From: a virus
Length of the DNA stretch: 48,584 nt
Reading direction: 5' to 3' (one strand)
IMG/VR virus record: IMGVR_UViG_3300032334_001302
Coordinates: 1-48,584 of that record
Below are positions 21,402-26,237 of this stretch, piece after piece. Under the pieces are notes generated by a model. It was not told where the DNA came from, did no database searches, and saw only the letters and a list, made by a program, of their open reading frames with translations. A program made the position numbers and the translations under genes. How positions within the stretch are numbered: position 1 is the stretch's first letter; each line of letters starts with the position of its first letter.

Positions 21402-23810
21402 TTATTGAACTCTGTAAGTGCTTACATTCATTGCTGTACCTACTTTAGTTCCATCTAAGTATACATTTCCCCCTTGTTTAATAGTAGTTATAAGTTCATC
21501 TAATTTGGCATAAAATTTATCAAGGGGAATTACTGCTTCTGCTCCAGCTTCACCAACAATTGCTCTAGTAGAACTAGTAACAATACCTCCTGTAGCCATC
21601 TTTTTAGGAGGTGCAACTTCTGAACTTTTCTTAACATCTCTAGCCATCAAAGCAGCATCTATGCCTATTGAAGCTGCAGTACCAGCCCCTGGAATTGTAC
21701 CTGCTAATCCGGAAGCTACTTCTCCAGCTGCTCCTAATAAGTCTCCATCAGCTAAACGACTTAAACCAAATCCAATTCCGGCTAAGGCACCAATTATTGG
21801 AATTTTTTTAAGTAAAGATTTACCTAATGTTTTAGTACCTGCTTTTGCTACTGATTTTGCTGCTGTAGCTGATCCTGCCTTAACTGCTGCTTGCGCTGCT
21901 GCTCCTGATACTGTTTTACCAGTTGCTTTCATAGTAGCGGTAAGAACTTTTTCTGATGACTTAGCTCCAATACCTAAATATTTAGCTACACTTTTAGAAG
22001 CTCCTGATAGTCCTTGGAATATTTTTAGTAATCCCTTAAATTGCCTAACAATGGAAATAACACCTAATGTACCTAAAATAGCAGCAAATGCTGTTGCGTG
22101 ATTATTAATGAATCCAAATACTTTATTAACTACATCTAATAAAGGTGCTAATTTATTAAAAGCTTCAACTGTTTTTTGAGCTGCTAAAGCTTGCATTTCT
22201 GCTATACTTTTATTATCTAATTGAGTAATTTTTTCATCACTACCTAATTTATTAATGATTTTTTGTCTTATTACCTCAGCATCAGCAAATTTACCTTGTT
22301 TTTCTAATGCTTTTACTTGTTCATATTCTTTTTTTACTGCTGTATCTAAATCTTTAGCATTAGAAGCACCAAATGCAGATAGGGCTTTTTGTTCTAAAAG
22401 CATTTCAGACATATCTTCACGACTCATTCCTAAAGATTTAGCAATAGCTTCTTGTTGGATTCGGTTCATTTTACCGAATTTTTCCTGAGTAATGTTTTGT
22501 TTAGTTAATTCTTTAGATAAACCAGCCAAATCATTATTTAAAGCTAATCTTCTAGCATCTTCTAAATTTAATTCTTGGCCTGTTAATAATTCGGCTTCCA
22601 TCTCAGCAGCAATAGAAGATTCAAAATTTAATAAACTATCTGCTATTTTATCAACTTGACCTAAAGATAAACCAAGTTTTTTAGATTCAATAACCGCTTG
22701 TGCTAAATTTTTTCCTGTTCCTAATGTAGATATTTTTACAGATGCACTAGCGTTAGCAACATCTTTAGTAATAGCTTTATAATCAATTGATGTTTTATTT
22801 AAAGCATTACTTAATACAACTCTACCTCGTATATCATTACCTAATTTTTTAGCATCTTGACCTGTTGCTAGTGTAAATTTAGCAAATTTAGCAGATTCAT
22901 CAGCTGATAGTCCTAAAAATTTCTGTTGTAGTGCTATTTCTTCAGTAAGTTCAGGTGCTAATTTTCCAACAGCACCCATACTTTGGGCAAAACCCATAGT
23001 ATATTGTTCTAATTCTTTAGCAGTAAAAGAACCCTTACCTAAAGAAAAAGATAAATTAATAAACTCTTGATCTAAATCTCTAGCTTCTTGTTTACTAAGA
23101 TTTAAATTTCTAGCTAATGAAGTTGTACGTTCAGAAAGATCATTAACTCCTTTTATAGCAAACCCAATTCCTAAAGCTCCTAAACCTTTTACACCTAAAT
23201 TTGCTAACTCTTTGGCTCCAGCTTTAAAAGCACTTCCACCCTCAGAAGCGGCAGCACGAGCAGCATCGGATGCTTTTTGAAAATCTTTTAATACATTACT
23301 AATGACAGGTATGTCTTTAGTAAGATCAGCCATCCCATCAAAAAATCTCGTTTGATTATTTAACTTTTCAAACTGATTTGTGATTTTTTCTGCTGATTTT
23401 GCTTGTTCACGTAATTTATCAGCACCATCTTCATAGGCTCTAGCTACTTTATATGCTTCTTTTGCTTGGGCTTTAGAAAAAAAAACGGATTCTTGTCTTA
23501 ATCGTGTTGCTTTGGCTTCTAACTTAGTAGCTTCTTCAGTAGCTTTACGGACTTTTTCCTGAAATGATGCTTGTTGTTTTTTAGAGGCTAGTGTTTTAGA
23601 ATCAACTTTAGAGATAGAGTCACCTAAGGCATTGGCTGCACTAAATCCTTCTTTAAATGCTTTTACACTTTCTCCCGTTAATTCACTAACTTTTTGTAAT
23701 GAAGAATTAATACTTTTACCGATAGAATCTAAATCATTAACTAAACCAATTGATTCTGATCTAATTTTTTTGATTTCTCCTTCGTTTAATTCTCCTACTT
23801 TTTTAGCCAT
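21402..23810 (-). CDS. tail tape measure protein, 802 aa
   Basis: Sets tail length and is carried inside the tube. Residues 1-200 are coiled-coil (Lys/Glu/Ala heptads such as KVRKATEEATKLEAKATRL). A central alpha-helical region contains AAAILGTLGVISIV, and an Ala/Gly-rich hydrophobic segment lies near residues 680-750 (IPIIGALAGIGFGLSRL). The C-terminal motif MATGGIVTSSTRAIVGEAG, then AVIPLDKF, is the GGIV/GEAGPEAVIPL signature of many tape measures. It follows the chaperone pair, as expected. Confidence 0.87.
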   Translation of the reverse strand: MAKKVGELNEGEIKKIRSESIGLVNDLDSIGKSINSSLQKVSELTGESVKAFKEGFSAANALGDSISKVDSKTLASKKQQASFQEKVRKATEEATKLEAKATRLRQESVFFSKAQAKEAYKVARAYEDGADKLREQAKSAEKITNQFEKLNNQTRFFDGMADLTKDIPVISNVLKDFQKASDAARAAASEGGSAFKAGAKELANLGVKGLGALGIGFAIKGVNDLSERTTSLARNLNLSKQEARDLDQEFINLSFSLGKGSFTAKELEQYTMGFAQSMGAVGKLAPELTEEIALQQKFLGLSADESAKFAKFTLATGQDAKKLGNDIRGRVVLSNALNKTSIDYKAITKDVANASASVKISTLGTGKNLAQAVIESKKLGLSLGQVDKIADSLLNFESSIAAEMEAELLTGQELNLEDARRLALNNDLAGLSKELTKQNITQEKFGKMNRIQQEAIAKSLGMSREDMSEMLLEQKALSAFGASNAKDLDTAVKKEYEQVKALEKQGKFADAEVIRQKIINKLGSDEKITQLDNKSIAEMQALAAQKTVEAFNKLAPLLDVVNKVFGFINNHATAFAAILGTLGVISIVRQFKGLLKIFQGLSGASKSVAKYLGIGAKSSEKVLTATMKATGKTVSGAAAQAAVKAGSATAAKSVAKAGTKTLGKSLLKKIPIIGALAGIGFGLSRLADGDLLGAAGEVASGLAGTIPGAGTAASIGIDAALMARDVKKSSEVAPPKKMATGGIVTSSTRAIVGEAGAEAVIPLDKFYAKLDELITTIKQGGNVYLDGTKVGTAMNVSTYRVQ

Positions 23811-23836: not shown

Positions 23837-23840
23837 AAAA

Positions 23841-23860
23841 GGCATCATTTTTTAGATGCC
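23841..23860 (-). terminator. terminator hairpin over the stop of the chaperone extension
   Basis: GGCATC pairs with GATGCC around an eight-base A/T loop, followed in gene sense by TTTTAATATTT. The stem contains the last codons and TGA of the gp51-like frame, which supports that frame being translated and ending here. Confidence 0.6.
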
Positions 23861-24114
23861 TTTGTAATATAAGATGGAGGTGTAATTGGTTTTGAAGTTC
23901 CTGCTGATTTTAAAGCATTAATAGATTCTTGAACTACATCTGATTTATTTTGATCATTAGAATTTTCATAAAATTCATTTATTTTATTAAATGTAAAATT
24001 TCGTAACCAAATAGGCATATTATATATAGTTTCCCATGTATAACCACCTTTACCATGAAATACTATATCATGTATTTGGTTAAAAACTGATAGTCTATAA
24101 TTAGGCGTCAGGCC
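23845..24114 (-). CDS. gp51: gp51-like chaperone segment, expressed by +1 (or -2) frameshift
   Basis: An 89-codon open frame directly downstream of and overlapping the end of the gp26-like gene, with no ATG, GTG or TTG near its beginning. It encodes GLTPNYRLSVFNQIHDIVF, then GGYTWETIYNMPIWLRNFTF and a polar tail. The IHEIVY.G.GGY...YNMPIWLR pattern is one I know from short gp51/tail-chaperone proteins of T4-like phages, and T4 has gene 51 right after gene 26. Entering this frame from the gp26 frame at the T7 run by a +1 (or -2) slip would give a 332-residue fusion, like the G-GT chaperones of lambda. A CTG start at codon 2 is the alternative. Confidence 0.7.
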   Translation of the reverse strand, partial: GLTPNYRLSVFNQIHDIVFHGKGGYTWETIYNMPIWLRNFTFNKINEFYENSNDQNKSDVVQESINALKSAGTSKPITPPSYITKASKK

Positions 24115-24844
24115 AAAAAAAGTTAATCCCTATTGGTAGATCAGCATCCTCCTCTATACCTTCTGAGTTGGTAAGGATAATTTTTGTATTTATATCAGGC
24201 GATATTTCATTATAATATGAACGGAATGCTCTAGCATCTTTAGCTAAGAAATAGTTGTTAACAAATTCGCGAATATCTTTTTTATCTGTTGAACCATTAA
24301 CTGATGTAATGATATGGGCTAATCGTACAGTAACTTCACTTGTTAAATCTTTATTAATTTTCTGAAGTCCTTTAATTTCTTCATCAATTTTTTTCTCATC
24401 GCTATGAGTCAAAAGTTTAAAAGTAACTGTGTTTTGAGTATGTGGAAGTATAAAACTAAATTCGTTTAAATTAGATTTTGTATAATCTGGGTGATGGGGT
24501 TTTGGTTCTAATTTACTTAGGTCTATATTTTGATTAACACCATCATATTCAAACTCATACGATGCTCCGTATGATAAAACACGTGCCGCTAACATAATAG
24601 CATTCTTATCACCTACTAATAAATCATCATAATTTATTTTAGTAATAATTAAAGATTGAAGTAATTTATCAATTACTGTTCCTTGTTTAATGTAATTCTG
24701 ATTGGTTAAAATATCTTCTTCCTTAGCGGTCATATATTTCATTTCAATTTTACCTTCTTTAAGAGCACTTCCCTCAGGATAAAATTTACCTTTGGATGGT
24801 AATTCTACAGTTTCTGTAGGTAATTTAAATCTATTTTCTTCCAT
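24101..24844 (-). CDS. gp26: gp26-like baseplate hub assembly / tape-measure chaperone, 247 aa
   Basis: Starts MEENRFKLPTETVELPSKGK, followed by FYPEGSALKEGKIEMKYMTA and KEEDILTN. This N-terminal pattern (ELPSKG..YPEGS.L..G.iEMKYMTAKEEDIL) is characteristic of gp26-family proteins of T4-like phages. It folds as a mixed alpha/beta domain followed by a charged helical part (THSDEKKIDEEIKGLQ). The product ends INFFWPDA; a T7 run in the last codons allows a slip into the downstream gp51-like frame. It sits between tube and tape measure, the usual place of tape-measure chaperones. Confidence 0.8.
   Translation of the reverse strand: MEENRFKLPTETVELPSKGKFYPEGSALKEGKIEMKYMTAKEEDILTNQNYIKQGTVIDKLLQSLIITKINYDDLLVGDKNAIMLAARVLSYGASYEFEYDGVNQNIDLSKLEPKPHHPDYTKSNLNEFSFILPHTQNTVTFKLLTHSDEKKIDEEIKGLQKINKDLTSEVTVRLAHIITSVNGSTDKKDIREFVNNYFLAKDARAFRSYYNEISPDINTKIILTNSEGIEEDADLPIGINFFWPDA
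24115..24121 (-). promoter_or_regulatory. candidate frameshift site (T7 run)
   Basis: In gene sense AAC TTT TTT TGG near the end of the gp26-like gene. A +1 slip after the second TTT continues as GGC CTG ACG CCT into an 89-codon open frame. A -1 slip would reach TGA within three codons, so +1 or -2 is required. Confidence 0.6.
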
Positions 24845-24885: not shown

Positions 24886-24898
24886 AACAGAAAAAAGA

Positions 24899-24919
24899 AG
24901 CTCGCAAAAAATGCGAGCT
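24899..24919 (-). terminator. terminator behind the tail tube gene
   Basis: Gene-sense AGCTCGCA, loop of five T, TGCGAGCT, then TCTTTTTTC. A perfect eight-base-pair stem with a T-tract, 31 bases after the tube gene's stop. Termination here fits the high, separate expression expected for tube protein. Confidence 0.82.
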
Positions 24920-24950
24920 CTTTCAATAGTAATTTTAATTTTAATTTTAA

Positions 24951-25439
24951 TTAGAAATTCAATATACAGTAATCTGGTTGAACTGTCATTGTTAAATTAA
25001 CTGCTGTATCTGTTGTATCCCAGTTGTAATCACCAAAATTAGCTTCAGTAATTAAGGCACCTTTGATAATCCATTCTGAAACGATATCACCTACAGGTCC
25101 TAATACGTCGAATGTTAAGTCTTTCTTATAGAAATCGCTATAACCATCACGTCCAGTTACTGATTCGTGGTGTAAACGTACCCATTCCATTACTGCCTGA
25201 GCACCTGAAGGAGTGATAGGGTCAAATAATGTGAACTGGATAGTACCCCAAGTGGTTTTACCTTTCACAAAACGTTGTACGTTAATATGGTTTAAAGGAA
25301 CGGTACCTTGGGTTAACGTGACTGCACCAACACCTTTGATCTCATACGCTGGTATACCGTCAATATACATAATGAATCGGTTAGCCTGCTTTGGTTCAAA
25401 AGCTGTAAAGAAAATCTCATTAGGGTCTAATACTGCCAT
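24951..25439 (-). CDS. gp19: tail tube protein (gp19-like), 162 aa
   Basis: Forms the inner tube of the contractile tail. At 162 residues it matches T4 gp19 (163). Telling segments are FEPKQANRFIMYIDGIPAYE near the N-terminus, NVQRFVKGK, ITPSGAQAVMEWVRLHHES in the middle, and ITEANFGDYNWDTTDTAVNL near the end, as in gp19 and related Hcp-fold tube proteins. It has its own terminator and lies between the GIY-YIG insertion behind the sheath gene and the chaperone genes, matching the usual sheath-tube order. A long, AT-rich 5' leader follows the terminator of the upstream endonuclease gene. Confidence 0.9.
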   Translation of the reverse strand: MAVLDPNEIFFTAFEPKQANRFIMYIDGIPAYEIKGVGAVTLTQGTVPLNHINVQRFVKGKTTWGTIQFTLFDPITPSGAQAVMEWVRLHHESVTGRDGYSDFYKKDLTFDVLGPVGDIVSEWIIKGALITEANFGDYNWDTTDTAVNLTMTVQPDYCILNF

Positions 25440-25541: not shown

Positions 25542-26237
25542 CTACTTATAAACCCATTTAAAATTATAAGCTGTTTTAGAAAGACCAGTTAAACAACAAC
25601 TTATATTAGATCTCTTAAATTTAGGATTACTTTTAGAAGCTTCATCTATACTTTTAAATTCTTGAATAATATTATTTTCTTTATCTAACTGTATTACAGG
25701 TTTATATTTTTTATTTAAGAATGATTGAGGTTGATTTTTACCTAATTTTCCTTGTTTTATTTTTTCACAATGATCTTTTGATAATTTTACACCTTTTTTT
25801 ATTTGGCTTATTTTATTACCAAATCCTTCTGGTTTAGGTTTTCCTTTATTAGCTTTACTAAGTTTATCTTTACGTTCTTGATTTATACTTAATATAGGTT
25901 TTAATTTACCTTTATTACCTTTTCCTATTTTTTCAGTTACATATTTGTATTTTTCCTCATTTAAATTTTTATTATACCACCCAGAGGTTTTACTTCTTAT
26001 GTTGTAAAAATTTTTTGATTTAACAGCATCAAAATAATTAATCCAATATTCTTCACGTTCTCCTAAATTTTCTTTAGTACATATTTCTAATATTTCTTTT
26101 TGAAAATTTTCTTTACCATATTTTTTAATATCTTCTATAAGTAAAGCCCCAGAACCTAAGTAATTTGGATCATTATGAGAATCTTTACCAATATACTTTT
26201 TATTATTTAATAAATTCTTAGTTATGTATATTATCAT
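25542..26237 (-). CDS. GIY-YIG homing endonuclease between sheath and tube genes
   Basis: Nuclease domain at the extreme N-terminus: MIIYITKNL, KKYIGKDSHNDPNYLGSG, and a Glu in EREEYWINYF. Basic NUMOD3-like repeats follow (NKGKPKPEGFGNK, SKDHCEKIKQGK). A C-terminal IENR1-like module runs from PVIQLDKENNIIQEF to AYNFKWVYK. Its ATG follows the sheath terminator by a few bases and its promoter-like motif lies inside that terminator's loop. This looks like a self-contained mobile cassette that has landed between two highly conserved structural genes. Confidence 0.85.
   Translation of the reverse strand: MIIYITKNLLNNKKYIGKDSHNDPNYLGSGALLIEDIKKYGKENFQKEILEICTKENLGEREEYWINYFDAVKSKNFYNIRSKTSGWYNKNLNEEKYKYVTEKIGKGNKGKLKPILSINQERKDKLSKANKGKPKPEGFGNKISQIKKGVKLSKDHCEKIKQGKLGKNQPQSFLNKKYKPVIQLDKENNIIQEFKSIDEASKSNPKFKRSNISCCLTGLSKTAYNFKWVYK

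Follow-up and report, generated by a model that had tools for sequence, protein, structure and literature searches.

A probable programmed +1 frameshift at a poly-T site in the tail chaperone gene of T4-like phages

How would a T4-like phage translate an open frame that follows on from its tail chaperone gene in the +1 frame, and that has no ATG, GTG or TTG near its beginning? The question is raised by a virus record of 48,584 bases (IMG/VR IMGVR_UViG_3300032334_001302, analysed over its whole length and hereafter called the window) with T4-like head and tail genes on board, its gene set including a tail sheath, a tail tube, a major head protein, a UvsX-like recombinase and a DnaB-like helicase. 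Frameshifted tail chaperones are textbook knowledge, and on comparative sequence grounds we consider it likely that this gene gives rise to two chaperones, one short and one long, through a programmed +1 ribosomal frameshift.

The chaperone gene, its two frames and its protein family

The minus-strand gene order runs from the sheath through a GIY-YIG endonuclease, the tail tube and the chaperone gene to the tape measure, the chaperone being placed between tail tube and tape measure genes as is usual for G/GT-type chaperones. The GIY-YIG gene (25542-26237, minus strand) encodes a homing endonuclease, and its insertion separates the tail sheath gene from that of the tail tube. Since the related phage immuto infects Flavobacterium, we infer a Bacteroidota host for the phage of the window. 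The features on which the argument turns are the following (all on the minus strand).

24951..25439, minus: tail tube protein, gp19-like (PHROG_4542 tail tube, E 1.4e-22)
24101..24844, minus: TAC-N, gp26-like tail assembly chaperone, short 0-frame form, 247 aa (PHROG_150 'baseplate hub', E 1.3e-11)
24128..24130, minus: GGG codon, 9 nt upstream of the T-run, candidate stimulator (synonymous bias)
24122, minus: base 5' of the T-run, C (never T in +1 loci)
24115-24121, minus: T7 run, read from the sequence
24116..24121, minus: slip codons F242-F243, TTT TTT, the first six bases of T7 (no synonymous change in 103 representatives)
24113..24115, minus: TGG (Trp), the 0-frame codon after the slip codons, its first base being the last T of T7
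24110..24112, minus: CCT codon, read in two frames (CCT in 103/103 representatives)
24101..24103, minus: TAA, 0-frame stop of the short form
23845..24114, minus: TAC-C, +1-frame extension, 89 codons plus stop (TAC-N + TAC-C = TAC-NC, 332 aa)
21402..23810, minus: tape measure protein, 802 aa, expected client (from its position 3' of the chaperone and the annotation of the syntenic immuto gene)

The 247-aa open reading frame ends in AAC TTT TTT TGG CCT GAC GCC TAA, and the +1 frame is open from 24129 to 23848 (minus strand), with its TGA stop at 23847-23845. If reading passes to the +1 frame behind the second TTT, an uninterrupted 332-aa protein results; a -2 shift would give one of 333 aa. An earlier sequence-only reading had described this ORF end, the T7 run and an 89-codon +1 frame without a start codon, all of which are present in the sequence. 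It had also placed a terminator hairpin at the end of the extension, and a 9-bp terminator-like hairpin does lie over the stop codon (23838-23863, minus strand), 27 nt before the ATG of the tape measure gene. Similar hairpins are present in relatives, and by energy the structure there is clearly stronger than in shuffled sequences (mean MFE -12.5 vs -4.5 in 45 window-clade loci and -14.1 vs -6.0 in 52 loci of the Mel-JY01 clade), whereas by pair count it is no better than the control (46 vs 41 of 97). A second terminator-like hairpin with a T tract (24898-24920, minus strand) is found between the tail tube and chaperone genes, the latter thus being flanked by two such hairpins. The tape measure protein has PHROG matches in its C-terminal part only, labelled endolysin/peptidase.

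The short form matched PHROG_150 up to profile position 232 (E 1.3e-11, 45.4 bits) and the fused form up to position 265 of 282 (E 4.8e-13, 50.2 bits), while Pfam PF12322 (T4_baseplate) was matched by neither (short form at E up to 0.1, fused form at E up to 0.5). Both T4 gp26 and T4 gp51 match PHROG_150, the latter to position 280 of 282, and even pairwise BLASTP aligns the two with each other (E 2e-6); gp26 and gp51 are, as their sequences indicate, short and long paralogues of the chaperone family. The sequence-only reading held that T4 keeps genes 26 and 51 as adjacent separate genes: their adjacency stands (T4 112000-122000), with the amendment that they lie back to back, are divergently transcribed and paralogous, and that gp51 corresponds to a whole gp26-like protein plus extension.

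The same reading called the extension 'gp51-like', a label that would hold only by an indirect route. Profile comparison (hhalign) gave 97.2% for the extension against the extensions of phages with a -1 offset (see below), and 99.6% and 100% for the fused family against the -1-group fusions and the distant +1 fusions, respectively. Compared directly with T4 gp51, the fused family reached a negligible 0.1%, the -1-group extension 26.6%, and PHROG_634 was matched both by the KVP40 extension gene and by the C-terminus of gp51. Thus, the likeness would concern only the C-terminal domain of gp51 and appears by transitivity, through PHROG_150 and the -1 group.

For the short form, AlphaFold gave a model (pLDDT 89, pTM 0.85) with 48 matches in BFVD at E <=0.001. 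Several of these carry the name of a baseplate hub subunit or of a T4-like baseplate hub assembly protein, and the T4-type baseplate-hub protein of SP-15 was matched with a TM of 0.81. No significant match was found for the model in the PDB, where the HK97 tail assembly chaperone 2ob9 took rank 2 (probability 0.54, E 0.97).

Frame offset and slip site in relatives

Two sets of relatives were assembled from IMG/VR. The first search, with six peptides of which one (GINFFWPD) overlaps the slip site and may have biased that set only, matched at least 599 stretches, 80 relatives being kept among the matches listed; the second, with the protein of Microcystis phage Mel-JY01 and no query peptide on the slip site, likewise matched at least 599 stretches and added 80 more loci among the matches listed. 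The extension lies in the +1 frame in 78/80 loci of the first set (L070 and L078 leave the contig) and in 78/80 of the second (L141 and L170 leave the contig), i.e. in 156/160 environmental loci among the matches listed, the other four reaching contig ends. With SP-15 or RM378 as the query, a scan gave a single locus in either case, namely a copy of that phage itself at 100% identity.

Over the listed loci, immuto, Mel-JY01 and the window, the motif (TTTTTT|CTTTTT|TTTCTT)(TGG|TAC)CCT occurs exactly once in 162/163 sequences, and the sole miss (L170) is a contig that stops before the slip site. The 0-frame stop ends 18-42 nt past the slip-site start in 160 loci among the matches listed, and the extension measures 65-114 codons in all 155 loci in which it could be measured (also among the matches listed). 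Its other two frames hold stops in 97/97 and 95/97 loci. For the extension, dN/dS has a median of 0.44 (3184 pairs, many of them near saturation, maximum 2.04), which is only moderately low.

Considering that the break falls in a homopolymer, it could stem from a sequencing error, or the gene of the window could be decayed. We give this explanation practically no credence, as the same offset recurs in about 160 other assemblies among the matches listed and in isolates, and cultured Flavobacterium phage immuto, which has TTTCTTT in place of T7, keeps the +1 offset with an interrupted run and so speaks against a homopolymer miscall. The suggestion that resequencing might give T6, and hence a single continuous frame, falls with an offset common to that many independent assemblies. 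As to whether relatives keep the T run and the offset, a point that the sequence-only reading had raised, the offset is kept throughout these assemblies and the isolates, while the run is interrupted in five loci.

The same five loci bear on transcriptional slippage, by which the T7 run would give rise to a mixed mRNA population. The homopolymer at the junction invites this explanation; nevertheless, the loci with TTTCTTT retain the frame offset, the distant relatives GXN1 and LR756508 lack a long run, and seven Ts are short for such slippage, so that we regard it as very improbable.

Slightly less probable still is that the extension is an independently initiated gene that overlaps gp26 and starts at CTG or at another codon, as the sequence-only reading had allowed for CTG. 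A CTG stands near the beginning of the extension in the window and in 115/162 loci among the matches listed, some loci have an in-frame ATG or TTG upstream, and the Mel-JY01 record lists the extension as a separate CDS. Against this, the CTG is not conserved: extension codon 2 (which follows GGC or, in the TAC variants, ACC) reads CTG in 115, CTA in 25, CTT in 12 and CTC in 10 of the 162 loci among the matches listed, i.e. something other than CTG in 47. Moreover, 61/162 loci among the matches listed have no ATG, GTG or TTG anywhere from the upstream stop to extension codon 15, and an independent start leaves the lack of synonymous change at the F-F-P codons unaccounted for. Sequencing error, pseudogene and independent start were all rejected on the evidence of the relatives.

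This lack of synonymous change emerged from a codon analysis of 161 loci (L028, with a stop inside the gene, was dropped), from which 103 representatives below 85% nucleotide identity were kept. Of the 63 conserved degenerate codon columns 60 vary synonymously, and the three invariant ones are the F, F and P of the slip site. Among the representatives codon 1 is TTT in 101 and CTT in 2, codon 2 is TTT in 99 and CTT in 4, the next codon is TGG in 101 and TAC in 2, and CCT follows in all 103. Phenylalanine elsewhere in the chaperone gene is encoded by TTC in 151/862 cases, and TTC is found at codon 1 in 0/103. Part of the constraint on CCT is due to double coding, because the following +1 codon is always CTN. 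The slip site is kept at the nucleotide level beyond the need of the protein, as expected of G/GT-type chaperone genes.

A bias is also seen at the base before the T-run, which is C in 121, G in 34, A in 7 and T in none of the 162 +1 loci among the matches listed; over the representatives, T occurs there in 0/103 vs 40% at other third positions. The absence of T (0/162 among the matches listed) keeps out the -1 heptamer U UUU UUU.

Forward or backward slippage

Taken together, the offset, the homology, the many loci without a start of their own for the extension and the conservation of the site argue strongly for what the sequence-only reading had proposed, a programmed shift that gives a short and an extended tape-measure chaperone. 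That ribosomes slip here at all, that they do so towards +1, how often they do it and what the two products are for, we infer. The majority of ribosomes would read AAC UUU UUU UGG CCU GAC GCC UAA and release TAC-N (247 aa). In a minority, the peptidyl-tRNA-Phe on the UUU beside UGG (in some relatives a tRNA-Leu on CUU) would move one base forward along the U-run, and the shifted ribosomes would continue GGC CUG ACG ... to make TAC-NC (332 aa), which has one more domain at its C-terminus. If the two forms act as gpG and gpGT do in lambda, the tape measure protein would be coated by the N part, and tail tube subunits would be brought in by the C domain.

The same frame would be reached by a programmed -2 shift, in which tRNA-Phe goes back two bases on UUUUU and one more Phe is added (333 aa), as in phage Mu. 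On the T7 of the window clade both shifts are possible, perfect re-pairing being available to the -2 shift, and for the latter there is a precedent in the part of the recoding literature that treats phage Mu (PMC5009743). The sequences of more distant members are more discriminating. In GXN1 (GAA TTC TTT CGT) and LR756508 (AAC TTT CTA TTC) a Phe-tRNA can re-pair one base forward (UUC) and not two back, where mismatched pairing would be needed, which favours +1 over -2; the CTT variants (L064, L066, L074, L079 and immuto) would, for a -2 shift, need tRNA-Leu on UUC. The absence of TTC at codon 1 (0/103) points the other way, as if bases 4-6 of the site had to be UUU: it counts against a simple codon-2 +1 slip, which needs no such limit, and would be explained by a codon-1 slip or by -2 at codon 2. 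Weighing these, we deem the -2 shift unlikely. Thus, of the two directions that the sequence-only reading had put side by side, +1 is favoured as the more probable.

For the +1 shift, the simplest rule that fits the sequences of all +1 members would be that a peptidyl-tRNA on YUU re-pairs one base forward to UUU or UUC. It applies at codon 2 in nearly all of them and at codon 1 in LR756508, and in LIS04 codon 1 suits it better than codon 2. Counted against the +1 explanation is the A-site codon, which is UGG or UAC and, unlike at the RF2 site, no stop codon. How ribosomes shift forward on a U-run at a sense codon, when neither a stop nor a strong Shine-Dalgarno element is present, is poorly understood.

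The GGG upstream may be a weak Shine-Dalgarno-like stimulator, and we treat it as a candidate. Where window-clade loci encode Gly 9 nt upstream, they use GGG in 34/45 cases, vs 27/498 elsewhere in the gene (Fisher p 8e-28). Pairing with the anti-Shine-Dalgarno is only slightly above that of synonymous shuffles (-3.83 vs -3.45 in the window clade, -4.74 vs -3.81 in the Mel clade). A strong synonymous bias is seen in this clade over all nine bases before the T-run (24122-24130, minus strand; GGG NTT NNC), the next codon ending in T in 45/49 and C preceding the run in 46/49. A conserved downstream RNA structure was not found (z-score -1.31 in the window, no covarying pairs in the relatives).

Direction across the family and comparison with known systems

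The sequence-only reading had remarked that the direction is not the common -1, and the +1 frame of the extension in the environmental loci bears this out. Among named and other single genomes, +1 extensions are found in immuto, Mel-JY01, RM378, GXN1, SP-15, LIS04 and LR756508. Extensions in the -1 frame, after T TTT TTY, are found in 13 named phages (KVP40, Bellamy, C48C1 and ten jumbo-type) and in the uncultured LR756511. XacN1 and RAS14 have their extensions in the -1 frame, and a +1 reading for them was rejected. Of 94 further -1-type loci, a few of which are the same phages as the 13 named ones, 92 were scoreable, and 92/92 are -1 with T before TTT TTC.

In a tree of 48 short forms two changes are needed for the 31 +1 rows and a single +1 clade is unrejected (p-AU 0.188), the details being uncertain as several branches are long. 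LR756511, a 595-kb uncultured phage genome, is -1 at T TTT TTC, yet adjoins the +1 SP-15 group in the tree, which makes it a possible reversal of direction.

That a T precedes the run in every scoreable -1 locus and in no +1 locus suggests, at the level of sequence, a one-base direction switch, because a T there would make the -1 heptamer. We are inclined to think, with somewhat less assurance than we attach to the +1 shift, that the direction has flipped at one poly-U locus while both products were kept, the base 5' of the U-run acting as the switch. Shifting would be -1 on U UUU UUY (Kyanoviridae, KVP40, jumbo phages) and +1 on V UUU UUU UGG or close variants (phages of Flavobacterium, Rhodothermus, Microcystis, Bacillus and Listeria with their uncultured kin), with none in T4, which has two paralogous genes.

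Such a scheme would allow forward and backward slippage to be compared in nature at a single homologous site, would make a sharp prediction about one base, and would link the frameshifted chaperones of other phages to the two-gene arrangement of T4. An abundant, mostly uncultured phage group (at least 599 stretches matched), in which annotation loses the long chaperone, would join those with such a recoding signal. The public records of immuto, Mel-JY01, RM378 and SP-15 miss or mis-annotate the long form, the extension being absent, a fragment or a separate hypothetical protein; those of immuto, RM378 and SP-15 have no full-length long chaperone annotated.

Xu, Hendrix and Duda reportedly established in 2004 the conserved tail-assembly-chaperone frameshift, with gpG/gpGT of phage lambda; there the shift is -1, whereas in the window the target is the +1 frame. 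Vladimirov, Gautam and Davidson are said to have identified the T4-like chaperone genes in 2022, with frameshifting apparently conserved in several T4-like groups. As far as the literature searched goes, T4-like chaperone genes, partly frameshifted, are thus published, and the forward direction and its signature are new; no mention of a +1 shift in T4-type chaperones was found in that literature, although Vladimirov et al. 2022 may contain one. In the available excerpts, the authors of PRFect state, on Vladimirov et al. 2022, that some T4-like phages have a short and a long chaperone gene (PMC10885494), and the Adele paper cites the same work for poly-T -1 signals (PMC12846349).

The portion of Atkins et al. 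2016 at hand lists -1, -2 and +1 uses among tailed phages and presents T4 as an exception to tail-chaperone frameshifting (PMC5009743). T4 gp26 and gp51, the TAC-N and TAC-NC of T4, belong to the same family (PHROG_150) as the protein of the window, and differ in being made from two separate divergent genes. The chaperone genes of KVP40, Kyanoviridae and jumbo phages (T TTT TTC) have a homologous short protein and extension and a poly-U site at the same place; they differ from the window in being -1, in the T before the run (92/92 scoreable loci) and in having no TGG CCT motif.

Other shifts into the +1 frame resemble the site in part. The RF2 gene (prfB) shares the +1 target, and immuto-type sites (CUU UGG C) are close to that of RF2 (CUU UGA C), the chaperone site differing in its sense codon in the A site, in its lack of a strong Shine-Dalgarno element and in the gene concerned. 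An RF2 +1 site with a perfect Shine-Dalgarno-like element also occurs in Flavobacterium johnsoniae, where, in the excerpt of the report, its authors infer rRNA pairing despite an occluded anti-Shine-Dalgarno (PMC8710568). The -2 shift of phage Mu and the +1 shifts of Listeria phage PSA, whose tsh site is given as CCC_UGA in the accessible part of the source (PMC5009743), are likewise cases in which a phage recodes into the +1 frame, with a tail gene among those affected in PSA; their sites and proteins are other than those of the chaperone of the window.
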